In this document: positions 1 to 12,396 of the stretch, piece after piece
Numbering within the stretch: position 1 is the stretch's first letter
Layout: every line of letters starts with the position of its first letter
NCBI RefSeq assembly: GCF_026016325.1
Contig: NZ_CP087203.1
Coordinates: forward strand, 5,828,001-5,892,000
Length of the DNA: 64,000 nt
Source: Pseudomonas sp. B21-056
GTDB lineage: Bacteria; Pseudomonadota; Gammaproteobacteria; Pseudomonadales; Pseudomonadaceae
Direction of reading: 5' to 3'
Made by a program: the position numbers and the translations under genes
Notes under the pieces: generated by a model
What the model saw: the letters and a program-made list of their open reading frames with translations, nothing else
Database searches by the model: none
What the model was told of the DNA's origin: nothing

Positions 1-997
1 AAGACAGCAACGCTGTTAGCAGCCCTGTACCAAGGGACGCGCCCCAAACGCCATAACCGGCGAACACGTTCAGGATCTGCGCGATGTGGTCGGTCAGGCC
101 GGCGTTCTTCAGGCCATAAACAACCAGATACATACCCAAAGAAAAAATCACCACCTGCCATGGCGCCTCTTTGAGCACCTTGCTTGTGTTGATGGCGTGA
201 CCACGAGCCGCGATGACGTAAAGAATGAATGCACAGACCGCTGCAATGGCGCTGATTGGCACCCCCAATGGCTCAATGACAAAGAAGCCGATCAGCAGTA
301 GTGCCAGCACCCACCAACCGGCTACAAAAGTCGCCCGGTCGTGGATTGCCTCGTCCGGATTGTCCAGTTGGTTGAGGTCATAGGTCTTTGGTAAATCTTT
401 GCGGAAAAACCACAGCAACATGACTAATGTCGCCGCCACGCTGACGATGTTTACCGGCACCATGATCGAAGCATATTCGTTGAAGCCGATATCGAAGTAG
501 TCGGCAGAAACGATGTTGACCAGGTTGGAAACCACCAGCGGTAAGCTCGCCGTATCGGCGATAAAACCGGCTGCCATAACGAATGCCAACGTAGCAGCAG
601 GAGAAAAACGCAGCGCCAGCAACATCGCGATCACAATGGGTGTGAGGATCAATGCTGCTCCGTCATTAGCGAACAGGGCAGACACCGCTGCGCCCAGCAG
701 GACGATAAATGCGAACAGCTTGCGGGTGCTCCCGCCTCCCCATCGGGCCACATGCAGCGCAGCCCATTTGAAAAGGCCTGCCTCATCAAGCAACAGACTA
801 ATGATAATGACCGCGATGAACGTTCCGGTAGCGTTCCAGACTATGCGCCATACCTCCGGTATGTCTGCGAGCGTAACGACACCTGCCAGCAACGCCACGA
901 TGGCACCGAATATCGCACTCCAGCCAACCCCAAGCCCCTTGGGTTGCCAGATGACAAGGACGATGGTGGCAATAAAGATCAATACGGCAATCAGCAT
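1..997 (-). CDS. arsB: Arsenite efflux permease ArsB, 3' end cut by the window edge
   Basis: Inner-membrane arsenite/antimonite extrusion permease of the ArsB family. About 332 residues are visible of a family length near 430; the C-terminus lies beyond base 1. The reading frame starts [19 protein letters not shown] and runs through repeated hydrophobic segments, including the conserved stretch [19 protein letters not shown]. It follows arsR after a 24-bp gap on the same strand, so it is the third gene of an arsC-arsR-arsB transcription unit. ArsR derepression by As(III) should control it. The call is firm; only the missing end is unknown. Confidence 0.93.
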
Positions 998-1021
998 TTC
1001 ATTAATCCGGTTGGGCGTGAA

Positions 1022-1378
1022 TCAGCTACACACGGCTTGGTTGATCGGACGGTCGTTCATGCCGCAGAGGCGCTTAGCCTCGGTTTCCAGCCATTGCTGA
1101 TTGGCGTCTACCACTTCCTTCAAAACTGCCGTCACCCACTCGGGCAAATCAGGATTCAGTCGGTAATACACCCATTGGCCTTGGCGACGATCCAACAGCA
1201 AACCGGCGGAGCGCAGCAGCGCCAAATGACGAGAAATCTTCGGCTGACTCAGGTCAAGTGCTGCCGTCAGCTCGCATACACACAGCTCACCTTCACTCAC
1301 GACAAGCAGCGAAATTTTTGCTCGGGTGTCATCCGCTAGGCACTTGAATAAGGTGGTGGGGTTCATGGGTTCTGTCAT
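1022..1378 (-). CDS. arsR: ArsR-family arsenite-responsive repressor
   Basis: Winged-helix metalloregulator of 118 residues that represses the ars operon until it binds As(III). It carries the classic ELCVCEL metal-site motif (two cysteines, about residues 31-37) next to the recognition helix segment DLSQPKISRHLALLRSAGLL. Its ATG overlaps the arsC stop codon by four bases (ATGA), which indicates translational coupling. The gene lies between arsC and arsB. A palindrome-rich promoter region at 1821-1860 is its likely operator. Confidence 0.93.
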   Translation of the reverse strand: MTEPMNPTTLFKCLADDTRAKISLLVVSEGELCVCELTAALDLSQPKISRHLALLRSAGLLLDRRQGQWVYYRLNPDLPEWVTAVLKEVVDANQQWLETEAKRLCGMNDRPINQAVCS

Positions 1379-1795
1379 AGATCCTCCAGGTGTTTGGTCT
1401 TGACCAAAACGAAGAGCTTGATGCGCTCGTGGATGTCGTGGAGCGTGTGGCGAAATGCGCCAGGATCATCGCTAGCTACTGGGTCAGGAAAATCCCAGGC
1501 AATGACTTCACCTGCACTGGGCATTGGTAGGCACTCGCTTGCGGATTTATCACAAAGAGTGATTACGTAATCGAATCGATCAGCTTGAAACTCGCTGATG
1601 GACTTGCTGTGCAGGCCCGTAGCATCGACTCCAACTGCCTCCAATGCTTGAGTCGTGCGCGGATCAACCTCTGACGGTTCAGATCCTGCGCTGAAGGCCG
1701 AAGCGCGGGTCGGTGTGCCGCAGCAAAGCCTCTGCAAGCAGGGAGCGGGCTGAGTTGGCAACGCACACGAAAAGCACTTTGATAGCAGGGCTCAT
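1375..1795 (-). pseudogene. arsC: Arsenate reductase ArsC (low-Mr phosphatase type), frameshifted
   Basis: Remnant or miscalled copy of a thioredoxin-type arsenate reductase. From the ATG at 1795 the frame gives MSPAIKVLFVCVANSARSLL, which contains the P-loop Cys-X5-Arg (CVANSAR), but it stops at 1679-1681 after 38 residues. The rest of the protein continues in the next frame: FSAGSEPSEVDPRTTQ, then the WDFPDPV loop, ending at 1375. The frames join near 1698-1702, as if two bases were lost between the codons for DPRF and AFSAG. A sequencing error is possible. As written, no product has both the catalytic cysteine and the aspartate loop. It is the first gene of the ars unit. Confidence 0.82.
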
Positions 1796-1820
1796 GGTGG
1801 AACTCGATGTATATGGAAAA

Positions 1821-1860
1821 TCGAATATACGCTTTGGCGAATATTCGGTAAAGCGAATAT
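1821..1860. promoter_or_regulatory. Divergent arsC/arsN2 promoter region with ArsR-type palindromes
   Basis: The gap between the arsC and arsN2 starts contains a perfect 10-bp palindrome CGAATATTCG at 1838-1847, flanked by further CGAATAT copies at 1822-1828 and 1854-1860. AT-rich inverted repeats in this position are typical ArsR operators. One operator could control both divergent genes. No binding data were available. Confidence 0.6.
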
Positions 1861-1936
1861 GATGTCTGCTGTTTCGGCATGTGCCCTAACGTTCCATGCG
1901 TGTCGGCATAACGGAGATGAGAGGATGGAGGGGGAT

Positions 1937-2416
1937 ATGATGATCCAGGCAACGGAAATAGCTGGAGGGCAGTCGCAGCGATTTCGCGATGCGCTGAAAT
2001 TTGCTGACCTTCCAGCAGACGATATTGATCTTCCAGGCCGAACCTTTTTTGAGTTCACACGGGATGGTGAGACTGTTGGATGGGGAGGGTTTGAAACGCA
2101 TGGGACAGATGGATTGCTGCGCTCCATGGTCGTAGAACCGGCGTACAGATCGAAAGGGGTTGGGGCTGAAGTGCTTCGAGTCATTGAAGCAATAGCTGCC
2201 GAGCAGGGAATCGCTCGATTTCATTTGCTGACAACAACTGCACCAGGCTTTTTTGAACAACAGGGCTATGCAGTAAATCAACGAGGCTCAGCGCCACCTC
2301 TGATTTCTCAAACGGAGCAGTTCAGGGGGCTTTGCCCTGGCTCGGCTTGCTACATGTACAAGGTCTTAACTTCGAAAGGTGCGATGACTGTTGCGCCTTA
2401 CGTTTTACGAGACTGA
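1937..2416 (+). CDS. arsN2: ArsN2-like GNAT acetyltransferase linked to arsenic resistance
   Basis: GNAT-fold N-acetyltransferase of 159 residues, matching the small acetyltransferases (ArsN/ArsN2) found in arsenic operons. Visible motifs are LLRSMVVEPAYRSKGVGAEVL (acetyl-CoA binding strand and Q/RxxGxG/A loop, here RSKGVG), HLLTTTAPGFFEQQGY, and the subfamily-like tail FRGLCPGSACYMYKVL. The start was set at the first ATG of a tandem ATGATG because GGAGGGGG lies just upstream at 1927-1934. It diverges from arsC across the shared operator. The substrate is not shown by the sequence; acetylation of an organoarsenical is inferred from family knowledge. Confidence 0.75.
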   Translation: MMIQATEIAGGQSQRFRDALKFADLPADDIDLPGRTFFEFTRDGETVGWGGFETHGTDGLLRSMVVEPAYRSKGVGAEVLRVIEAIAAEQGIARFHLLTTTAPGFFEQQGYAVNQRGSAPPLISQTEQFRGLCPGSACYMYKVLTSKGAMTVAPYVLRD

Positions 2417-2444
2417 AGGAGTGACTTATTCATCGTTTGAAATG

Positions 2445-2580
2445 TACCTCCAGCGCAAGCGGAGCGCGCAGGCCCTAGGATGGGCCGAAGGCTTGAGGAT
2501 GGAAGCCCGCAGGGCCAAAACCCAGCGCAGTCGGGGTTTGGTTCACGACAGCCGTACCCCAACTGGGTCAAGCCCCTAGC
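2445..2580. other. GC-rich segment of consecutive short hairpins, function unknown
   Basis: This 136-base stretch between arsN2 and the PemK-like gene contains a series of complementary arms: GGCCC/GGGCC near 2481-2496, GGCTT/AAGCC near 2500-2517, CCAAA-CCC with GGG-TTTGG near 2517-2542, and CCCA/TGGG near 2566-2575. It has no convincing reading frame. It could be a structured RNA, the end of a mobile element or a repeat. I could not assign it to a family. Confidence 0.4.
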
Positions 2581-2650
2581 GGATTCAATGTAAGTCGCCA
2601 TCGAACTACTGAGCCAGGAACCTTTGTCAGGCTTCCACTTGCCCATCCAA

Positions 2651-2675
2651 CACGTCAAAATACGATTTTGACGTG
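2651..2675. repeat. Perfect 11-bp inverted repeat just upstream of the PemK-like gene
   Basis: CACGTCAAAAT and its exact reverse complement are separated by three bases (ACG). The right arm ends 15 bp before the chosen ATG at 2691. The position suits an autoregulatory operator. It lacks a following T-tract, so it is not a good intrinsic terminator. Confidence 0.7.
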
Positions 2676-2690
2676 CCTACAGGATGTTCA

Positions 2691-3695
2691 ATGCAGACGA
2701 TCATCGTTCGCTATTTTGAAACTGTGATCGACCCAGCATCAGGCCGTGAAGTGCCTAACCTGCTGGGAACTGAATCCTACGAAGATATTCGCGAAGCACT
2801 CATCCCCGGCCTACCCACCCCGCGCCCAGGTAAGAAGGCCCCCCCGATCTTCGTCACTAAGTGCTTTTCTACCTCCCAGCACCATCGTTGGGAATTGGTA
2901 TCGGTAACCAGTACGCCCGCGAACGGGGTAGCACCGGCTATTTTTACGATTTTTATCAGGCCGGTAGACGTTTCCAGCGAGGTTTTCCTTTACCAGACGC
3001 TCAAGAAGGACAAAAACCAGACGCTGAAGAGACTGCTATGGCCTGGAACATTGGTTGAGGTCGATTATGGCTTTGTCCAGCACACAGGGCGGACTGACGC
3101 GAGCACAAAGACTAATAAGCGTTACTGCGACACGCTTCTTGCTGGTGAGATGTACAAGCGTCGATTGGCTGTAGTGGTGAAGGTTGTGTCGCCAAACCTT
3201 GTTCAGGTTGCTCCTGTGACATCCGTCACTCCATCGCCGGATGACAAATCGATCTTCCAGATATCTCAGGCCACGCTGGATAAAATGCCGCGCTATAAAT
3301 TTAGTGGCAAGTCCAGCTATGTCCTGTGCGGCAGAACAGAATCCGTTTCTATTCAGCGTCTTTTGCCTCCATTGAGCTACGGAACGAGCATCCCCATTCG
3401 CAACGTGCGCTACACGGTTAAGCTGGCGCGGAGCGAAGAGAAGCTTTTCAAAGAGGCTCTGCTGCACGCTGTGGGTGCTACCAACTATGTCCCCTACCAC
3501 CAGTTCCTTCAGGAGCAGATCAAAGCTGATCAGCTCCAGCAGGATGTTGACCGCCTCAATCGGGAGCTGGAGGCGTCCATAGCTGCCCTGGACGCGGTCA
3601 CCACAGCGGGCAACCTCGCAAAACGTTGGGCATCAGAGTGGGAGCTGGACTATGATGAAGGCCTTGAGGTTCAGCGAGAGTTGGATCGCGCCTGA
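2691..3695 (+). CDS. PemK/MazF-like domain protein with C-terminal coiled coil
   Basis: A 334-residue protein of uncertain function. Residues about 118-230 resemble the PemK/MazF fold: LLWPGTLVEVDYG, then KRRLAVVVKVVSPNLVQVAPVTSV, then a region ending SVSIQRLLPP. The first 110 residues match nothing I recognise. The last 70 (EQIKADQLQQDVDRLNRELEASIAALD) have coiled-coil heptads. ATG 2691 was chosen over an in-frame GTG at 2673 because AGGA lies six bases upstream and the GTG is inside the inverted repeat. A normal MazF is about 110 residues and has an antitoxin partner next to it; none is evident here. It may be a defence effector or a solitary PemK-like protein. Confidence 0.5.
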   Translation: MQTIIVRYFETVIDPASGREVPNLLGTESYEDIREALIPGLPTPRPGKKAPPIFVTKCFSTSQHHRWELVSVTSTPANGVAPAIFTIFIRPVDVSSEVFLYQTLKKDKNQTLKRLLWPGTLVEVDYGFVQHTGRTDASTKTNKRYCDTLLAGEMYKRRLAVVVKVVSPNLVQVAPVTSVTPSPDDKSIFQISQATLDKMPRYKFSGKSSYVLCGRTESVSIQRLLPPLSYGTSIPIRNVRYTVKLARSEEKLFKEALLHAVGATNYVPYHQFLQEQIKADQLQQDVDRLNRELEASIAALDAVTTAGNLAKRWASEWELDYDEGLEVQRELDRA

Positions 3696-3731
3696 GTCGA
3701 GCAACGTTAAATTGAAGTCCTGTCAATCTGG

Positions 3732-3761
3732 TTGACACGCGTGGCACCTTTTCTATATAAT
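3732..3761 (+). promoter_or_regulatory. Consensus sigma-70 promoter for a candidate small RNA
   Basis: Perfect -35 (TTGACA, 3732-3737) and perfect -10 (TATAAT, 3756-3761) hexamers lie 18 bp apart. Transcription should begin near 3768. No open reading frame with a ribosome binding site follows before the terminator at 3848-3874. Confidence 0.75.
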
Positions 3762-3768
3762 TTACCCA

Positions 3769-3874
3769 CATGGTCGAGCTAAGAGTGCAGGACTCCACCT
3801 CGGCGACACGGCTAATACCGTCTCCTGTGAAAGTAAAATGTTCAAAGAAACCGCCCCTCAAAGGCGGTTTTTTT
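3769..3874 (+). ncRNA. Candidate small RNA of about 105 nt
   Basis: The segment between a consensus promoter and a strong intrinsic terminator is about 105 nt and has no plausible coding frame. Such a promoter-terminator arrangement is typical of small RNAs or tRNA-like genes. I do not recognise the sequence as a known RNA family. It lies between the PemK-like gene and the convergent small gene at 4008-4295. Expression is inferred only. Confidence 0.5.
3848..3874 (+). terminator. Intrinsic terminator of the candidate small RNA
   Basis: Stem AACCGCC/GGCGGTT with a short loop is followed by an unbroken run of T (3868-3874). Confidence 0.85.
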
Positions 3875-4007
3875 GTGCCCATTGTTTACTGCTCGGAGCC
3901 CTGAGATGGAGGGTTACTCTTGAGTCCGGTTTTGCGCCAACGCCTTAGTGGTGGTGCTTCTGCCGGTCGTGGGCAGGATGCCCCGCTGATGGCGAGGCAG
4001 CTTCTGT

Positions 4008-4295
4008 TTACCAGCCCAGAATTTCTTCGACCTGTTCGGTGAGTTCTGCCCGGTCGGTAACCTTGCTCAGATCATCGCTATGAAGTGCATTTTCGGCAGC
4101 ATGGACATGTACAAGCTTCTCTTTGCCGTGCTTGTTCATAAGCTGCTCCAAGAAATAAAGGACTTCGTAGCCTTCGTCCTTGTCTACCTGCTGACGATCT
4201 TTAATACCTGCATAAGGCGAGTCGCCTTCATCTCGAGTCCAAGTGTAGGTATAGACATCGGTTTGAAGGTTTGAGCGTTTCAGTATTACAGCCAT
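4008..4295 (-). CDS. Hypothetical 95-residue acidic protein
   Basis: The frame starts MAVILKRSNLQTDVYTYTWT and ends with TEQVEEILGW. It is acidic and has no membrane segment or known motif that I recognise. The ATG at 4295 has GGAG five bases upstream, which supports it over longer extensions. It lies on the same strand as, and 363 bp downstream of, the methyltransferase gene, and is convergent with the candidate small RNA. It may belong to the same accessory island. The function is unknown. Confidence 0.6.
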   Translation of the reverse strand: MAVILKRSNLQTDVYTYTWTRDEGDSPYAGIKDRQQVDKDEGYEVLYFLEQLMNKHGKEKLVHVHAAENALHSDDLSKVTDRAELTEQVEEILGW

Positions 4296-4658
4296 GTGAA
4301 CTCCATTTGCGTGATACAGCTGATGTGGAATTGAGCGCTCCGTGCATCCAAAGGCCCCGCCTGGTAGGCGAGCATGATGGTGCTTGGGCGAGCTAATCGT
4401 GCCCCAGCTTTTGCGTAGTGTCACGGGATTAGTGGCTTCTTGCCAGCACACTTCAGATTGCTGCTAGGAGTTGGTCTTGTGAGGGCGATTGGGGATGAGG
4501 TGAAACCGTGCCTGGCATCTTAAGGATCAGAGTAGTGGGTCGCATGTCCCGTGCTGACTTTCCTATGACCCAAGTATTTAAAGGTCGGTCGTCGTCCGCG
4601 TGGAAAACTGATGTGGCATCAGCGCTAAAAGGCATCTCGAAGGTATAGGCGACTTGGT
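4296..4658. other. 363-bp gap with no supported gene
   Basis: Between the small gene ending its 5' side at 4295 and the methyltransferase stop at 4659 there is only a 60-codon minus-strand frame (4453-4635) with no ribosome site and no recognisable protein features. No strong promoter or hairpin was noticed. Confidence 0.5.
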
Positions 4659-5525
4659 CTACGATACCTTCCGGTTCAAGCCACTCTCAGGCGCTAAAAT
4701 AGTTGGCCCATAGATCATAACTTCAGAACCTTTCTTTTTTTGTTGAGCGGTATAGCTCAAGAAATATTCGTCCTGGCGATAATTGGTGTAGATATTTTTT
4801 ATCTCGCTCACGTTATCGTATGAAACGATCCAAGGCTTGTCGATACTGCCCAGCGCGTTAGCGATCTGTACGTGATCGTCGTGCACGTAGAAGTTGCGAT
4901 AGAGACCAGAGCCCTTGATGTAATAGGGAGGATCGAGATAGGTGAGGGATTTCTTTGGAAGAGCTGGGGTTATATTATTGATGAAGCCAAGAGCATCTTC
5001 ATTGTAGATTTTGATTCGATTCTTATACTTTCCAATTAATTCTATACGCTTAATAAGTTCAGGCTTATTGAAGCGAACATCCAACTTCCACTTTCCTGCT
5101 TGCTCTTTCCCACCAATAACGCCGGCTTTCAAGATGCCCGAGCGATTAGTGCGATTGAGGAAGAAGGTAGCCATGGCAAGATCCACAACTGAACAATCTT
5201 CTGGATTATCAAGTATGGCCTTAAATCTATGCCAGTTTTCCATGGTGACAGGCGTGTCAACGATAGCCTTGCTGATATCATCTGTATGATGGACTACCGA
5301 ATGCCAGAACGCGTAGATAGCCGGATCTAGATCATTGATATGTATAACTGAGGCATACTCGTGGAACATGAGTTCCAGAGCAACACCAGCTCCGCCTGCA
5401 TAGGGTTCTGCATAATGACCGTCATGTAAGCCATTCACTTCAAACACTTGCTTTATGAAGTGAGCAAATTTTCCCTTGCCACCAGGGTAGCGTAGCGGTG
5501 TAGAAAATACCCTAGAAGCGCCCAT
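4659..5525 (-). CDS. D12-class (Dam-type) DNA adenine N6-methyltransferase
   Basis: DNA methyltransferase of 288 residues. It has the D12/Dam motifs in order: FSTPLRYPGGKGKF (motif X), AEPYAGGAGVALEL (motif I, AdoMet binding) and TYLDPPYY (motif IV, catalytic DPPY). It methylates adenine in an unknown recognition site. Neighbours suggest a role in defence or self-marking: the ParB/HEPN-like gene lies 61 bp upstream on the same strand, so the two are probably co-transcribed. The region is more AT-rich than the core genes. No recognisable restriction endonuclease lies beside it, so it is either orphan or partnered by the upstream protein. Confidence 0.9.
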   Translation of the reverse strand: MGASRVFSTPLRYPGGKGKFAHFIKQVFEVNGLHDGHYAEPYAGGAGVALELMFHEYASVIHINDLDPAIYAFWHSVVHHTDDISKAIVDTPVTMENWHRFKAILDNPEDCSVVDLAMATFFLNRTNRSGILKAGVIGGKEQAGKWKLDVRFNKPELIKRIELIGKYKNRIKIYNEDALGFINNITPALPKKSLTYLDPPYYIKGSGLYRNFYVHDDHVQIANALGSIDKPWIVSYDNVSEIKNIYTNYRQDEYFLSYTAQQKKKGSEVMIYGPTILAPESGLNRKVS

Positions 5526-5586
5526 GAATCTTATCCCAGCTCGTCAAGCTGTCCATGAGAACACATGCTAGGGCATTTTCCAATGC

Positions 5587-7158
5587 TTAGCGCCAGATGG
5601 CTTCAAGCATAGGCTGGTATTCTTCCGCAATGTCCTTCAGCTCGGATGGTAGGGGGGCGCTATGAGTCCCGTGCACGAACAGGTTGAAGTGATCAACCGA
5701 TCCTGGCTGGTCATAGGAGCTGGCACGCTTGAAAATGGCCTTTGCCGCTGGGGCCGCTATTTTCTTTTCGGCTTCCAGATGTTTAACCACCGACTGAACC
5801 TTCATGACCAACTTGTCACCGCTTCCTCCACCGCGAAGTTCATTGTTAGTGTCCCAACGCAAAACTGTTTTACCTGCGTCCTTCTGCATTCTCGCGTATT
5901 CATCGCAAGTTGTTTCAATAAACACGCGAAAAGTTATTGCAACTGCGTTAGGGCACTCATCAACTCGCAGGACTGCTCTCAGCTCGTTATATATTGCGTT
6001 GATACGCGAGTTGGAAATCTTCAGCGACCAAGGGGTCAAATATTTCCTCGCTCGTGCTTGTGGTTTTGCGCGAATTCCCGGAGAAGCTGGAGGTTCAGGT
6101 TTTATATTTTCGGTGCCGTCCGGCTTGCCCGGCTTAGTCCCGCCCGATTGAGGGCCACTAGCTACACCTGGTCGAGTGCCGTTGCCACCACCTGGCTGCG
6201 CGTTAGTACCTTTTTCATCGTCAGAGTCACCGTTGCCGCCAGCGCTGTGACCGCCCCCTGTGCCCCCACCATTCGTCGTGTCCGGCTGAGCCGGTCTGAC
6301 CTTTACCTTTGCGGCTTCAGCCAAACTGTCGGGAAGTATTTCAGGTGGAATATGCCCAAGGGTAACTACCTGGTTCTCATACTTACGCACGTCGTTCACG
6401 TTGTATCCATGGGATACAAACATATCGAGCATGAACTCCAGCGCGGGCGCAATCTGATCGAGTGGCAGCTGTGGTGTCAGGGTCTTATTTTCGACTTTTA
6501 ACCGGAAGGTGTTCTGCCCGAGCGTAGACGAGAAGATCCGCGTAAGGGTCGTTACGTCGATCTCGAAGACGTCCAGAGCCGCCTTGTTCGTGAAGATGTG
6601 CTGGTTGTCGACGATCAGGTTTCTGATCTGGCGACCAATAGATTCAATGCCAGTCTGGCGTGCCCGGCGTTCGTCTCGAATGTCACTGTCCCAGCCAACC
6701 CGTCCTGCCCCCCGATTCTCGCCCGTATGCTTCAGCTCAATCCATACATCCCCGTCAGCGCGGGTAGGCACTACGCTGCATTGCAGGCTTTCAGGCACCC
6801 CATCCGTCAAACTATGATGGGCTTTTAGAAAGCCTTTATAGCCGCGATCTGCGGGACAAAGGTCGGGACGCTGAAGGAGCTTAAGGGCTGTCAGCCGGCG
6901 ATTCCCTTCAAGGACTATAAAGTTGCCGTCTTCGTCCGGTGTTACAAGCTGCAGCTCTGTAGGGTCGAGACCGTTCTCAACAATATGTTCGGCTAGGCGA
7001 AGAATTTTCTTAGCCTCCTCCGGATTGGAGAGCATCAGCTTGATCGCTTCCCGCTGATTCTGGGCGACATCGTTGCCGAATCGCACGTTCTCCTGGTCGA
7101 GCTTAATTTGATCCAGGGAGATAACGCGTATATCCCGCATCATTGCGTCAATTTTCAT
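5587..7158 (-). CDS. ParB/Srx-domain protein with Gly/Pro-rich linker and HEPN-like C-terminus
   Basis: A 523-residue multidomain protein. Residues about 8-130 form a ParB/sulfiredoxin-type domain (VISLDQIKLDQENVRF, then FIVLEGNRRLTALKLL, the GxRR-like nucleotide motif). About 290-370 is low-complexity Gly/Pro/Asn linker. The C-terminal 140 residues are helical and end HFNLFVHGTHSAPLPSELKDI, similar to HEPN-like tails seen in abortive-infection and restriction-type proteins; the HEPN call is inference. It does not look like a chromosomal ParB because it has no HTH or CTP-clamp arrangement and no parA neighbour. It is upstream of the adenine methyltransferase in the same orientation. A nuclease or ATPase activity is possible but unproven. 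Confidence 0.7.
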   Translation of the reverse strand: MKIDAMMRDIRVISLDQIKLDQENVRFGNDVAQNQREAIKLMLSNPEEAKKILRLAEHIVENGLDPTELQLVTPDEDGNFIVLEGNRRLTALKLLQRPDLCPADRGYKGFLKAHHSLTDGVPESLQCSVVPTRADGDVWIELKHTGENRGAGRVGWDSDIRDERRARQTGIESIGRQIRNLIVDNQHIFTNKAALDVFEIDVTTLTRIFSSTLGQNTFRLKVENKTLTPQLPLDQIAPALEFMLDMFVSHGYNVNDVRKYENQVVTLGHIPPEILPDSLAEAAKVKVRPAQPDTTNGGGTGGGHSAGGNGDSDDEKGTNAQPGGGNGTRPGVASGPQSGGTKPGKPDGTENIKPEPPASPGIRAKPQARARKYLTPWSLKISNSRINAIYNELRAVLRVDECPNAVAITFRVFIETTCDEYARMQKDAGKTVLRWDTNNELRGGGSGDKLVMKVQSVVKHLEAEKKIAAPAAKAIFKRASSYDQPGSVDHFNLFVHGTHSAPLPSELKDIAEEYQPMLEAIWR

Positions 7159-7594
7159 AAATTATCCATTCGGCGATTCGGTGCTGGCGCAATGATAATA
7201 CAAAGCGCGGACATAGGAGGGTCGCCGTTTCTTGGTCTATCAGCCCTTCGTAGCTGGTCGGCAACGCAGGAGCGGTGTACACCGCTTTTCTCCTCCAAAT
7301 TGGTAACATTTAGCATTGAGATTAAAAGGATAGGAGCAGAAAGGTGCGCCTGGATAATGACAATTTCAGTGAAATTACGGTGCAATTCGGAAAGTCCTGC
7401 AGCCGTCAATGAAGCGATGGTGCATGTCGCTCATCGCCGCTTCCGCCCGAAATTGCCGCTGAGCAGACCGGCGACCACGAGCTCCGATGAGGCTTCAGGG
7501 ATTTTCCGCAATGAGCTCGTCTGAGGTGAGCGCTGCACGGTGATTTAGATGTTCCCTAGCACACGAGAGGTGAGCGCATTGTGACGAGCCATCC
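7159..7594. other. Gap upstream of the ParB-like gene, no supported gene
   Basis: This stretch holds only poor open frames, including an 84-codon minus-strand frame (7155-7409) whose stop overlaps the ParB-like start but which needs a TTG start. The promoter of the ParB-methyltransferase unit probably lies here, but no clear -35/-10 pair was seen. Confidence 0.4.
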
Positions 7595-7618
7595 AAATAC
7601 AACACCAGGGTTGTATTT
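7595..7618. repeat. 9-bp perfect inverted repeat
   Basis: AAATACAAC and its exact reverse complement GTTGTATTT are separated by six bases. It stands between the ParB-like gene promoter region and the tRNA remnant. It could be a regulator or recombinase binding site. Confidence 0.5.
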
Positions 7619-7729
7619 AATCAACCGTAGCTACATGATCGTCAACCGGAAGCAATCACTATAATTCACGGGCAGTTGACCAGGGACATGACCGGACGGA
7701 CAGTACACAAACGGAAACTTTATATACCA

Positions 7730-7760
7730 CATAATGGTTCGAGTCCGTGTGGGCCCACCA
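7730..7760 (+). other. tRNA 3'-end remnant, likely island attachment site
   Basis: The bases GGTTCGAGTCC (T-arm and loop) followed by GTGTGGGCCCACCA look exactly like the last 30 bases of a tRNA gene with encoded CCA, ending at 7760. No matching 5' acceptor strand (GGGCCCA) or cloverleaf lies in the preceding 50 bases, so this is not a complete tRNA. A tRNA terminator follows directly. This is what remains when an element integrates into a tRNA 3' end. tRNA-Met is a guess from Pseudomonas gene order near davBA and rpoD. Confidence 0.6.
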
Positions 7761-7765
7761 ACTTG

Positions 7766-7790
7766 AAAGCCGCGCATTGCGCGGTTTTTT
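7766..7790 (+). terminator. Intrinsic terminator after the tRNA remnant
   Basis: Stem CCGCGC/GCGCGG with a three-base loop is followed by six T residues (7785-7790). Confidence 0.85.
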
Positions 7791-7830
7791 CATGCCTGCA
7801 AAAACAGCGGATTCAGCCCATACACAGAAA

Positions 7831-9027
7831 TCAGCCAAAGGTTTTCATAAAAGGCTCAGCACAACGGCGGATCGCAGCCACCACATCAGGCGCCTGCTCA
7901 CAAAGCTCAGTCGAGCGAGCCAGCACACGCTCCAATGCCTGTAATTGATTGCGGATTATCGTTTCCGGCTCGGCGATGCCACATACCTGAGCGAAGTCCA
8001 GCACGCCTTGTCGGGAAGCAAATAAGGACTTGTTTCCAACCAGATCAAGTGCCAAAACGTCCGCAGGAATGTACGCCGTCGTATTAACGATATCGTAGGC
8101 CGGAGCCAAGCGTGCGTCGCGCTGGGTTGGCTCGGAGTACAACAGCCCGAAGTTTTTCAGATGGGCGTCACCATTACCAACGATACAGCTCAAGGTTACG
8201 ATGGCAAATAGTTGCGCCAGTGAATCCTCTATATGCTTCGAAGGGCAGAACAGGCGTATAGCCTTGGCGATAGCCGAATAGCTCTTGCTATATTTTTGCT
8301 CGGCAGGAAGCCCCATCAGTACTGCCATATCCTCAAAACCCACGGGATTGAGCTGTTCGTCCCGGTCAAAGCGGCGCATGACAAACAGTTTGGCATTATC
8401 GGAAAGGTAAAACTCTGGAACAGGAATTCCCGCTTCTCTGGCCACGGACATGCACAGGAATTCGTTGATGGCCAATCCGGGAAATTCATCACGACCGCTT
8501 TTGATGATCAGATCAGAGGTCTTCGAGGTGAAACGCTGTGTGGCGCTAGTCTGACGCTCTGGAACCAGGACTTTTGGCTGCACACCCGATATCCCAGCAC
8601 GCAAGATGTAGCGATCGACCAAATCGACGAAGATGTCCTCCGCACCATCCCAAGCCAGGATTTCCTCCAGCTTTTCTCCGGGAAACTCTTGACGTCGCAG
8701 GAGTGCATCAACGTTCGCAGAGGTGATTGCTACACGCCCGATAGGCGAGCTGCTGCCAGACAAGGCCAGCAGCAACATGGGATCGACGTTTGCCACTTTA
8801 GCCAAGCGATTACGCAACTGCTCCAGGACGTAACCCTCCGGCAAATTCATCTGGAAGATTGGGTGCAGGTCCCGATGACGGTACTCATCCAGACGTACTG
8901 GCATCAACAAGCTGATCGCCGCCTGTGCTGCCGCATCCTCACGGTAGCGAAAAAGATAGTGCCCAGCACTGCTGAGGATCTTTCCGCTGTCGCCTTCTGG
9001 CGTCGTGACCTGCAATGAGGCAACCAT
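7831..9027 (-). CDS. hipA: HipA-family serine/threonine kinase toxin
   Basis: Toxin kinase of 398 residues; E. coli HipA phosphorylates glutamyl-tRNA synthetase and causes dormancy. Motifs: GISGVQPKVLV (145-155, the loop with the autophosphorylated serine, here Ser147), LIIKSG (Lys176, ATP contact), VGNGDAHLKNFGLLY (catalytic Asp287 and Asn292) and PAYDIVNT (Asp312, metal ligand). All active-site residues are present. The start codon overlaps the hipB stop by one base, the usual antitoxin-first arrangement. Target identity is inferred from the family. Confidence 0.92.
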   Translation of the reverse strand: MVASLQVTTPEGDSGKILSSAGHYLFRYREDAAAQAAISLLMPVRLDEYRHRDLHPIFQMNLPEGYVLEQLRNRLAKVANVDPMLLLALSGSSSPIGRVAITSANVDALLRRQEFPGEKLEEILAWDGAEDIFVDLVDRYILRAGISGVQPKVLVPERQTSATQRFTSKTSDLIIKSGRDEFPGLAINEFLCMSVAREAGIPVPEFYLSDNAKLFVMRRFDRDEQLNPVGFEDMAVLMGLPAEQKYSKSYSAIAKAIRLFCPSKHIEDSLAQLFAIVTLSCIVGNGDAHLKNFGLLYSEPTQRDARLAPAYDIVNTTAYIPADVLALDLVGNKSLFASRQGVLDFAQVCGIAEPETIIRNQLQALERVLARSTELCEQAPDVVAAIRRCAEPFMKTFG

Positions 9028-9278
9028 CAGTCAAACACTCCTTGGATTTCATCCAGCGTGGGCATGGATGCAGGAATTACCGAAAGTTCGCAGTCCAGGG
9101 CTGCCACAACCCGTGCATAAGCAGCCATGCCCACCGAGAGGTCACCCTTCTCGATTGTGATGACTTTCTGCCGGGTAATACCAGCTAACCCCGCCAGCCT
9201 GGCTTGTGTCAGCCCACGATTGAGACGACGTTGCTTAAGCTGCTCGCCAAGCCGAACCGTGATGAGAGAATAATCCAT
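9027..9278 (-). CDS. hipB: HipB-like XRE-family antitoxin
   Basis: DNA-binding antitoxin of 83 residues that neutralises HipA and represses the operon. The helix-turn-helix is visible in LKQRRLNRGLTQARLAGLAGITRQKVITIEKG. ATG 9278 was chosen over upstream in-frame codons because the protein then begins directly before the HTH and the family is about this size. It is the first gene of the hipBA pair. Two GTATAC palindromes immediately upstream are likely its operators. Confidence 0.88.
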   Translation of the reverse strand: MDYSLITVRLGEQLKQRRLNRGLTQARLAGLAGITRQKVITIEKGDLSVGMAAYARVVAALDCELSVIPASMPTLDEIQGVFD

Positions 9279-9283
9279 GTTCC

Positions 9284-9319
9284 GTATACATAACAATGTG
9301 ATGTCGATGTAACGTATAC
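9284..9319. promoter_or_regulatory. Likely HipB operator pair
   Basis: Two GTATAC palindromes, each in the context CGTATACA, stand at 9284-9289 and 9314-9319, exactly 30 bp apart (about three helical turns), just upstream of the hipB ATG. The pairing suits cooperative binding by a dimeric XRE repressor. Confidence 0.55.
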
Positions 9320-9406
9320 AGAACTTTTCAAGTAAGGCAAAACAATTTTCTTCAAGATTAGAAAGCACATGCGCGTATAAGCACGCATTGCACGGCTTTC
9401 CTGTTT

Positions 9407-11899
9407 TTGAGAGGGTGGCCGCCTCACTTTGTCCATGCCTGTTACCCAGCCCCCCTCACCGAGACGCTCATCATCGCCACCCCCACCCTCCCCCGACTGT
9501 TCCTTGAGCTTTTCTGGCAACTCGCCATCCTGCTGGTGCCGGCCTTTTTCGTCACGGTCATGCCACCCCCGCTGGCACTACTGACGGTGCTGTTCTTCGG
9601 CCTGTTGATGGGCATCGCGGCGCGGCTGGGCTTTCTATCCGTGGGTCGGGGCTGTGCCCGGTTGATGATCGGCGCCGTGTTTGGCCTGGGTTTCAGCCTG
9701 GGCAGGGCGCTGCCCGAGTGGTGGGGTATCCTGGTGGCAATCGTCGCCATCATCGGCGGGCTCGCCTGTGTCAGCAAATGGGAGCGACGTCTTGGCCTGG
9801 TATCGGACCCTGTCAAAGGGCCAAGTGCCTGGGGCGGATCCGAGCCGCAACTGACTCCGGAGGGTGAGCCGATACGGACGTTCAACCATGGCGAAATCGC
9901 AATGGGCGGCCCGACCTATTGCGACTACCTGTTTCCCGATGGCGTACTCCTGCAAGGCCTTGGCGCTTCGGCGGTGTTCTCCAGCGACGGACGTTATTTC
10001 GCCGCGCCGGTGCCGTCCCGGCAGAGCTGGGGGCTGGTCGTTCTGGACCGTCAGCAGCGCCGGATCTACCGCTGCGACAACAGTGAATCCTGGGAACTGG
10101 ACACGCTGGACCTTGATAGCTTGAACGGTCGTTATAGCCCATTGGTCGACAACAGCGTTCGTACGACCCGGATCGATGAGCTGTTGCAAACCGCCAGCGC
10201 CGCCGATCTGGTACCCGTTGCCGATCTTTGGCTGGAACCGGGCTGGTATCCGGATGATATTGCGCACACCTTCGAGCGGCGCTCCGCTGACGGGCAACAA
10301 TGCCTGGTGGGCAACGTTGTATTGCCCCCCACTTTTCGCGATCTGCCTCAGCCCTTGGAACCGCTGCGTTCACCACGCTATGCCATCAGCGTCAATGGGC
10401 AGCCGTCTGGCTTGTTGATGGCCGCTGATACCGCATTGGTGTGGGGTACCGATCACCGCGCGTTGGTGTGTCGGGCTCAGGAACAAACCGGGCATCCAAG
10501 CGGCGACCGCTACTGGTTATGGCAGGTTGACCAGGGCTGGCGCGCACTGCCTTCGCCTTGGGTGAATAGCGATGCCGAACCCTCTTTTTATTGGTATGAC
10601 GTGGTGGGCCTCAACAAGCACCACGTACATATCGGGTCGTACCTCGACTACCCGCGTCCGTCTCTCGGCCGGTATGGCTATCGCCTCGACAGCATCCACA
10701 GCGATACCGAAATCCAGGCAGGCCATGACGCCCAGGGTCGGGTGCAGGTTGCCGAGTTTCAGTTGACCCGGATGAGCATTGCGATGCCGTTGGGCAGCCA
10801 GGGCCGGCGCGGTGAGTCGTTCATAGAGACGCAGCCGATGTCGGGCGGCGTCTGCGCTCAGCTGATCTGGCTTTGCGACAACAGCGAAGGGCTGGGCGCT
10901 TATCGCTGCCAGATCGGTGAGTGGCAACTGCCAGGACGTTGGTTACTGGATCATCGGGTCTCCGACTGCGGACGTTATCTGGCGTTGCTGCCATTTGCAG
11001 ACGCAATGACAGTCGCAACCCACGCAGCGGTTGTCGATGTGCAGGAGAAGTGCCTGTTGGAGGGCCCTCCGATGTGGGTGGCCCGCCTGCTCGATTTCCG
11101 CAATGGCTTGCTGAGTCTGGCGACGATCGGCGGCCGTCTGGATCAAGACCTGAACGGCAGCGCGCTGCAACGCTTCAATGTCCCTGCACCGAAGGTCGGT
11201 AGCGATCCGTCATTCTTTCATGCCGACGAACACTCCCGGCTGTTCTACAACACCGTGGAGCTACGGGTGAGCGACTCACAGTTATGCAGCGTTACCCCTT
11301 GGCGCCGGGTGGATTGTCCGCAAGCGGCCATTGCCGAGGGCGACTTCATCCAGCCCTCACCCGAGCAACGAGATGCCGCCTGGTTGTTCGGCAGCGACAC
11401 GGAATATGCCGATAGCTGGGTCCGTGCGAATACGCCGCGGCTCGGGGGCTACTTGTTGACCGCCTCCGGCTGTGCGTTGACTGACCTTGCGCCCTCGATG
11501 ATCTGGTCGCCGGACGGCCGCTATCTCGCGCTGACCCGCATGGCTACCGATGTGACAGAGCTTTGTGGGAGTTATCGCGGCTGGCAGTTGCTGCTACTCG
11601 ACGTTCAAGCGCACACGCTACGGGTGCATTCGCAATGGCTGGGCAACCGTCCGCTATTTGAAGGTTTTGACGACCAGCAGGTACACATCCGTTGTTTTGA
11701 ACGGGATTGGGAAGCGGAGGACGATGAGGACCCAGGTTCAATACACTCATTGCCACTGGCCCTTCTGCTGCAATTACCCACTGAACAACTGATCTGCCAG
11801 GACGGTTTCTGGCTCAGTGCTTCGCAAACGCATCTGGCGCCCCACTGGCGAGCATTGGCGTTACCTGCCATCAGCTATTTCGAGCCCAAGAGCCTGTAA
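9407..11899 (+). CDS. Large membrane-anchored protein of unknown function
   Basis: A frame of up to 830 residues. Residues about 35-120 contain three or four hydrophobic segments (WQLAILLVPAFFVTVM, LALLTVLFFGLLMGIAARLG, MIGAVFGLGFSLG, WGILVAIVAIIGGLACV). The remaining 700 residues are hydrophilic and contain repeats such as FSSDGRYFAAP and WSPDGRYLALT, typical blades of WD40/TolB-like beta-propellers. I therefore infer a membrane-anchored propeller. The start is uncertain: the first in-frame codon is TTG 9407, and an ATG at 9435 is in another frame. It lies upstream of the Lrp gene and is not obviously in an operon with hipBA. Confidence 0.65.
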   Translation: MRGWPPHFVHACYPAPLTETLIIATPTLPRLFLELFWQLAILLVPAFFVTVMPPPLALLTVLFFGLLMGIAARLGFLSVGRGCARLMIGAVFGLGFSLGRALPEWWGILVAIVAIIGGLACVSKWERRLGLVSDPVKGPSAWGGSEPQLTPEGEPIRTFNHGEIAMGGPTYCDYLFPDGVLLQGLGASAVFSSDGRYFAAPVPSRQSWGLVVLDRQQRRIYRCDNSESWELDTLDLDSLNGRYSPLVDNSVRTTRIDELLQTASAADLVPVADLWLEPGWYPDDIAHTFERRSADGQQCLVGNVVLPPTFRDLPQPLEPLRSPRYAISVNGQPSGLLMAADTALVWGTDHRALVCRAQEQTGHPSGDRYWLWQVDQGWRALPSPWVNSDAEPSFYWYDVVGLNKHHVHIGSYLDYPRPSLGRYGYRLDSIHSDTEIQAGHDAQGRVQVAEFQLTRMSIAMPLGSQGRRGESFIETQPMSGGVCAQLIWLCDNSEGLGAYRCQIGEWQLPGRWLLDHRVSDCGRYLALLPFADAMTVATHAAVVDVQEKCLLEGPPMWVARLLDFRNGLLSLATIGGRLDQDLNGSALQRFNVPAPKVGSDPSFFHADEHSRLFYNTVELRVSDSQLCSVTPWRRVDCPQAAIAEGDFIQPSPEQRDAAWLFGSDTEYADSWVRANTPRLGGYLLTASGCALTDLAPSMIWSPDGRYLALTRMATDVTELCGSYRGWQLLLLDVQAHTLRVHSQWLGNRPLFEGFDDQQVHIRCFERDWEAEDDEDPGSIHSLPLALLLQLPTEQLICQDGFWLSASQTHLAPHWRALALPAISYFEPKSL

Positions 11900-11913
11900 C
11901 ATGCCCACCACCG

Positions 11914-12396
11914 ATGCCCGCGCCGGAGCCCACCGTGCCTGACACCCGCCCTCCCGTTCTCGACGAAATCGACCGTCAACTGATCGCCGCCCTGCAAATC
12001 AATGCCCGGGAAAGCGTCGCCATGCTGGCTCGGCAACTGGGCATTGCCCGGACAACCGTGACCTCACGGCTGGCCCGGCTGGAAAAAACCAAAGTGATTA
12101 CCGGCTATGGTGTGCGCCTTGGACAGCGGGTGGTCGATGGCGGCCTGCAGGCCTACGTCGGCATCAAGGTCCAGCCGCGCTCTGGCAAGGACGTGCTGCG
12201 ACGCCTGAGCGCCATGGCCCAGGTCCAGCAATTGTGCGCGGTCAGTGGCGAGTTCGATTATGTGGCCTGGCTGCGCACGGATTCGCCGGAACAGCTTGAT
12301 CAGTTGCTGGACCAGATCGGCAGCGTGGATGGCGTGGAGAAGACCACCACCTCGATCATTCTCAGCAGCAAGATTGATCGGGGGCAGCCGGTCTAG
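11914..12396 (+). CDS. Lrp/AsnC-family transcriptional regulator, likely of davBA
   Basis: Feast/famine regulator of 160 residues. The N-terminal HTH spans about 16-62 (LDEIDRQLIAALQINARESVAMLARQLGIARTTV in two blocks) and the C-terminal RAM ligand domain follows (VGIKVQPRSGKDVLRRLSAM). The gene is immediately upstream of and co-directional with davB, a position known for Lrp-type regulators of lysine catabolism in pseudomonads. A lysine or related amino acid effector is inferred. The ATG at 11914 was kept; GTG 11935 is an alternative. Confidence 0.85.
   Translation: MPAPEPTVPDTRPPVLDEIDRQLIAALQINARESVAMLARQLGIARTTVTSRLARLEKTKVITGYGVRLGQRVVDGGLQAYVGIKVQPRSGKDVLRRLSAMAQVQQLCAVSGEFDYVAWLRTDSPEQLDQLLDQIGSVDGVEKTTTSIILSSKIDRGQPV

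Follow-up and report, generated by a model that had tools for sequence, protein, structure and literature searches.

A PD-lambda-5 gene pair on a tRNA-integrated Pseudomonas island, and a second partner for its methyltransferase family

Analysis of a 64,000-nt stretch of the Pseudomonas sp. B21-056 genome (contig NZ_CP087203.1, positions 5,828,001 to 5,892,000; hereafter the window) uncovered two adjacent genes that are an island-borne member of the known PD-lambda-5 system. The upstream gene, PD-lambda-5_A (here A; 5587..7158, minus strand), encodes a 523-aa ParB-like and HEPN-like effector, and the downstream gene on the same strand, PD-lambda-5_B (here B; 4659..5525), encodes a 288-aa D12-class adenine-N6 DNA methyltransferase, with a gap of 61 bp between the two. 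The PADLOC profile PDLC04016 (PD-Lambda-5_A) aligned to residues 6-523 of A over positions 1-494 of its 494 (E=4.4e-248), and PDLC04018 (PD-Lambda-5_B) aligned to B over positions 4-279 of its 291 (E=8.9e-125). A matches 26 PADLOC families, and among the matches listed all 25 are PD-Lambda-5_A. Since PADLOC matches both proteins at nearly full length, it is close to certain from their sequences that the pair belongs to this already named system. An initial annotation of the window had described a 523-aa frame and a methyltransferase 61 bp away on the same strand, in an AT-richer setting, and had proposed a two-gene defence module of methyltransferase plus effector. Both frames were reproduced with identical coordinates, GC content falls from 62% over window 9.4-64 kb to 53% in A and 44% in B, and the modular reading agrees with the PADLOC calls for both proteins and with their pairing in other genomes described below; the accompanying remark that no named system has this architecture is superseded by the PD-lambda-5 assignment. 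A itself returned no family in Pfam or NCBIfam, and sequence searches of the PDB with A and A profiles gave no credible match.

A functional selection in E. coli identified PD-lambda-5 (Vassallo et al. 2022; PMC9519451), and excerpts of that report describe broad phage protection in E. coli and term it a compacted restriction-modification and abortive infection (RM+Abi) system. The same excerpts describe a P2-like prophage hotspot position between the replication endonuclease and portal genes, which is also where an A-B pair is encoded in the E. coli P2-like prophage L007, and PADLOC calls both of its proteins PD-Lambda-5. Compared through PADLOC profiles and this prophage, the window pair resembles PD-lambda-5 in both proteins, in the A-then-B gene order, and in its mobile-element setting, but it lies on a tRNA-integrated genomic island rather than in a P2-like prophage. 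The L007 proteins are 28% (A) and 56% (B) identical to those of the window, while the window's A shares 52% identity over 99% of the sequence with another E. coli protein (P0080). In a distant BLASTN comparison with E. coli, matches were confined to short pieces of the methyltransferase and occurred in 19 of 5426 genomes. Surveys report the system from Vibrio europaeus and from Pseudomonas PAPI-1 islands, and literature searches found no description of its mechanism.

A search of one-genome-per-species contigs with an A profile yielded 66 A loci, including near-copies (L024/L025) and two loci from one strain (L012 and L015), which span Pseudomonadota, Bacteroidota, Bacillota, Actinomycetota, and archaea. 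B adjoins A in 63 of these, and in the three loci without it (L039, L047, and L060) the contig stops within ~110 nt of the A frame. The two frames often overlap or sit tightly packed; B is on the opposite strand in L064, L066, L068, and L070, lies ~1 kb from A in L064 and L068, and is cut, alone or together with A, in L024, L025, L028, and L043. The distances among A proteins and among B proteins correlate (r=0.73 in 73 loci, after exclusion of four near-copies and of loci where A scores below 150 bits), and none of 999 permutations reached as high a value. The association with a methyltransferase that had been proposed from the window therefore recurs in its homologues. Given the 63 of 66 paired loci and the co-divergence of the two proteins, the explanation that they are chance neighbours, the methyltransferase being an orphan next to a gene unrelated to it, has a negligible probability. 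Matches to A extend to phage records (8) and plasmid records (6), and A is carried by 4 of 398 genomes of the genus.

Structure searches with an AlphaFold2 (AF2) model of A (mean predicted local distance difference test, pLDDT, 86) and an alignment of 69 A members support a predicted architecture in which a flexible linker connects a ParB-like unit with a helix-turn-helix and a HEPN-like domain. Residues 1-157 (6688..7158, minus strand, as are all parts of A) are modelled as a ParB/sulfiredoxin (Srx)-fold domain with invariant N24, R26, GNRR (85-88; 69/69 rows), KHTGxNxGxG (143-152), and W156. Model residues 2-171 match ParB, Noc, and KorB structures, and in several chains the ParB/Noc alignment reaches residue 269-273, mostly with a high root-mean-square deviation. 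A shares this fold with ParB/Noc CTPase clamps, and its GNRR motif is one that we take to resemble the ParB GERR motif, but A is fused to a HEPN-like domain and its use of nucleoside triphosphates is putative. We know of no partition ParB with the KHTGxNxGxG loop. From structure matches, model, and alignment, residues 158-289 (6292..6687) appear helical, like the ParB middle domain, and contain a putative helix-turn-helix with invariant R207; within its putative recognition helix, T/S203, T/N/S204, and R207 are kept in 69/69 rows. Residues 290-370 (6049..6291) are rich in Gly and Pro and disordered in the model (block pLDDT 35-61 for 291-370). Residues 371-523 (5590..6048) are predicted to form a HEPN-like helical domain, in which R411 and H496 are invariant in 69/69 rows and E415 is kept in 65/69, and the model of residues 380-523 matches HEPN structures, namely MntA-HepT complexes, a HEPN toxin, and Csm6. 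Sub-threshold Pfam matches among the 69 members are to GmrSD_N (in 8), ParB_N (in 5), and DUF4145 (in 3), the last presumably belonging to the HEPN clan. The ParB/Srx-like N-terminus, Gly/Pro linker, and HEPN-like C-terminus anticipated in the initial annotation each have a counterpart in the model, where the C-terminal fold resembles HEPN structures. PD-lambda-5_A thereby gains a concrete anatomy, of a ParB-like sensor, helix-turn-helix, linker, and non-canonical HEPN domain, with named candidate residues.

The catalytic DPPY (residues 198-201) and S-adenosylmethionine-binding motif of B are intact; D198, P199, P200, Y201, E40, G44, and G45 are invariant in 22/22 alignment rows, and the Pfam MethyltransfD12 match (E=1e-16) is above the Pfam cut-off. 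The stretch 112-165 of B (FLNRTNRSGI...GvIGG) has a mean distance of 0.46 vs 0.99 for the rest of the protein, and its higher conservation holds alike in copies partnered with A and in copies partnered with an ATPase (see below). This is presumably the region where related Dam-type enzymes carry their target contacts. Because both this stretch and the putative recognition helix of A are conserved, the alignments suggest one conserved target sequence for B, in contrast to typical restriction-modification systems, whose targets vary. In addition, the assay host in PMC9519451 lacked the mrr region, according to excerpts of that report, which hints by analogy that B is an active methyltransferase.

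The best overall explanation, to which we assign a probability of roughly 60%, is that B marks host DNA and that A detects unmarked DNA and fires a HEPN ribonuclease (RNase). B would methylate adenine at one fixed sequence across the host chromosome, and A would be a nucleotide-dependent DNA sensor whose ParB-like and helix-turn-helix unit engages the B site only if it is unmethylated, as in incoming phage DNA. ParB-style nucleotide-driven clamp closure or clustering would then bring HEPN domains together, and the RNase would cut cellular or phage RNA and halt infection, probably with host growth arrest. Taken separately, RNA is the probable target of the HEPN domain, gating by methylation has slightly better than even odds, and the ParB-like clamp detail is tentative. 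By analogy, the nearest worked precedent would be DndI, a protein combining DUF262 (ParB-like) and HNH domains; excerpts of PMC11662687 report that it hydrolyses ATP and is stimulated by modified DNA, and that ATP hydrolysis is lost and phage resistance reduced in the R87A mutant of its DGQQR motif. In A the logic would be the opposite, with unmodified DNA being detected. Like SspE, GmrSD, and DndI, A joins a ParB-like sensor to a C-terminal effector and is tied to DNA modification, but their effector is an HNH nuclease, whereas that of A is HEPN-like and its partner is an adenine methyltransferase.

Several observations weigh against this mechanism. The canonical HEPN motif Rx4-6H is incomplete in A, where no conserved arginine is found 4-6 residues before H496, and the C-terminus is for this reason classed as HEPN-like in fold only; A shares the helical fold of residues 380-523 with HEPN toxins (MntA-HepT, Csm6 HEPN) but differs from them in this arginine. 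The middle region is the most variable part of A (mean distance 2.44) and has the lowest correlation with B (r 0.50), which sits poorly with one fixed target. Three loci of the genus (L003-L005) encode weak ParB-like relatives, and their stretches of 3.1-3.2 kb lack B; as candidate members of the A family they were rejected, with E values of 2e-4 to 1e-3 over only 47-69 profile positions.

The absence of the usual HEPN arginine also speaks for a mechanism in which A itself attacks DNA, its ParB/Srx domain nicking or cleaving unmethylated DNA with the HEPN-like domain serving only for dimerisation or nucleic-acid binding, and non-specific DNA nicking by ParB/Srx proteins is cited in an excerpt of PMC12839542. 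We regard this as unlikely, because the invariance of R411 and H496 in all 69 members suggests a working HEPN-like site rather than a scaffold, and because none of the family scans with the window's A returned a nuclease. As for a type II restriction-modification partner, Pfam, NCBIfam, and the structure matches gave no endonuclease domain in A. The tight, often overlapping frames of the two genes and the likeness to MntA-HepT toxin complexes could instead point to a toxin-antitoxin-like pair, in which a toxic HEPN protein A is held directly by B and freed on infection, with genome methylation not being the signal. Such an arrangement is improbable: B keeps its active-methyltransferase motifs across phyla and pairs also with an unrelated ATPase, and the ParB-like DNA-binding anatomy of A would be left unexplained. 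A type IV-like system, in which A recognises wrongly or heavily modified DNA and B has another role, has still lower odds, as it offers no reason for A to accompany an apparently active methyltransferase so consistently.

The partners of B extend beyond A. A search of viral contigs by B recovered at least 600 stretches, 572 of them encoding a B relative, and the best 80 were kept, and partners were surveyed in the 39 loci with at least 37% identity to B (L074-L112). An A-family neighbour is present in 24 of the 39, including five that score under 90 bits (L090, which is cut by the contig start, L104, L106, L108, and L110) and one that scores 98 (L098). In another 12 (L074, L076, L078-L080, L082-L084, L086, and L101-L103, with L074 and L076 being near-copies), a 469-582-aa AAA ATPase is encoded upstream of B instead of A, with a gap of 0-337 bp. 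The remaining three are L092, where B is preceded by a ParB-like gene and by one of unknown family, L095, which starts at B, and L112, a fragment. The genes in L092 (3596-5733) appear to be a split A; upstream of B, one encodes a ParB-like protein of 370 aa and the other a 338-aa protein without a known family. No A was seen in the other 41 of the best 80 loci, which have at most 31% identity to B.

AAA_15 and AAA_21 match all six ATPases scanned, five of them viral and one from the E. coli P2-like prophage L006, in which B has the ATPase downstream. PADLOC ATPase-Toprim matches were found for ATPase partners of B, and in our reading the C-terminus of those inspected looks like the TOPRIM domain of OLD proteins. 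A, B, and the ATPase occur together within 700 bp in six loci (L009, L010, L011, L019, L026, and L173, the last being the same place as L009). For a census, 111 loci were entered and B proteins of at least 220 residues were scored, nine loci being dropped as missing or fragmentary; among the 102 B proteins, 79 have only A, 13 only the ATPase, 6 both, and 4 neither (L064 and L068, where A is ~1 kb off, L092, and L095), in a sample that is biased because most loci were retrieved through A. A tree was built from 97 B proteins, without the near-copies L076, L173, and L175 and the partnerless L092 and L095 and with L064 and L068 assigned to A by hand; explaining the ATPase-only label on it takes 8 changes, of which well-supported branches force at least 5. 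None of 500 shuffles clustered the label this strongly, and a few rows have long branches. With 8 changes on the tree and yet this degree of clustering, the phylogeny indicates that the partner of B is one that has been swapped or combined several times, but not freely. One narrow literature search did not find the B-ATPase pairing, an absence that does not show the pairing to be unpublished.

Because an OLD-like ATPase recurs as a partner of B, both in the absence of A and together with it, these results suggest a single methyltransferase family with exchangeable effectors around one conserved methyl mark, and this modularity is to us the most interesting part of the finding. PD-lambda-5 may accordingly be part of a modular platform, in which a fixed-specificity methyltransferase writes a mark and exchangeable readers (either a methylation-gated ParB-like HEPN ribonuclease or an OLD-like ATPase-TOPRIM protein, or the two combined) act on unmarked DNA, the ParB-like reader being a partition-type nucleotide clamp turned immune sensor; this broader proposal falls somewhat short of even odds. 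If the mark is fixed and the readers are swappable, one methylome would bear on two defence modules.

The window pair is encoded at the edge of an island of ~42.2 kb (G000:C1:5793577-5835735), whose right end is window position 7735 and whose left end is at ~1077 in L192; no recognised gene lies between A and the right end. Just outside this end, 25 nt (7736..7760, plus strand) form a tRNA 3' remnant, which had been suspected from the sequence and which is real because the same 25 nt end an intact CAT-anticodon tRNA in the relative G010, where it lies beside the same hipBA genes. ARAGORN found no tRNA in the window. The host tRNA gene is cut in its T-arm; its first part and upstream flank occupy G000:C1:5793455-5793576 and its remainder window 7736-7760, and no sequence from left of window 7736 was found in the 19.9-kb stretch of G010. 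The borders carry a 5-bp GGTTC duplication and 11-bp terminal inverted repeats, of which the right copy was read from the sequence at 7724..7734 (plus strand) and the left copy lies at the other island end, outside the window. The island has its own CAT-anticodon tRNA gene ~65 nt inside its left end, near which a gene with a Pfam phage-integrase match is also encoded. A GInt-type island was considered and rejected, with a Pfam integrase match in only one of the first four left-end genes. Further cargo includes Gabija (GajA E=4e-108, GajB E=4e-49; L154:1372-3950, ~16-19 kb left of the window start) and, in our reading of the protein sequences, fluoride- and arsenic-resistance genes. A role in defence fits this island setting. 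Directly beyond the right end, a HipA/HipB-like toxin-antitoxin pair (7831-9368, minus strand) is common to the window and G010.

A small acidic frame downstream of B (4008-4295, minus strand; 95 aa, within a 147-aa ORF) had been put forward as a possible third member of the module, a proposal that the comparative data do not bear out. The gene matches PHROGs phrog_33929 of unknown function (E=7.5e-7), and a homologue lies near A-B in only 1 of 66 A loci (L008). Within the 398 genus genomes it is present in 6 and A in 4, the two occurring together only in the window's own genome, while the 3 other genomes with A all lack the small gene. It was rejected as a general third component but may be a hitchhiker. 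One more Pseudomonas may carry both an A homologue (P0003) and a small-gene homologue (P0143), for which the longest contig is in each case given as 6,261,650 bases, and in L169 we read an OLD-like ATPase gene in the stretch that holds the small-gene homologue.

Two further features lie in the same part of the window. A 340-aa ORF (2673-3695, plus strand) has no family match better than E=0.017. At 3732-3880 (plus strand), a promoter scan found a 12-of-12 sigma-70-type promoter match, and within ~120 nt after it we read a hairpin and T-run, the hairpin not being listed by that scan. Rfam over window 1-12000 returned nothing at gathering scores, with isrK at 24.9 bits vs a cut-off of 50 at 3732-3880. 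From these sequence features the region is possibly a small RNA gene; it was matched in 51 of 149 genomes, mostly over the last 35-45 nt only, and has long 80-91% similar stretches in G008, G079, and G009.
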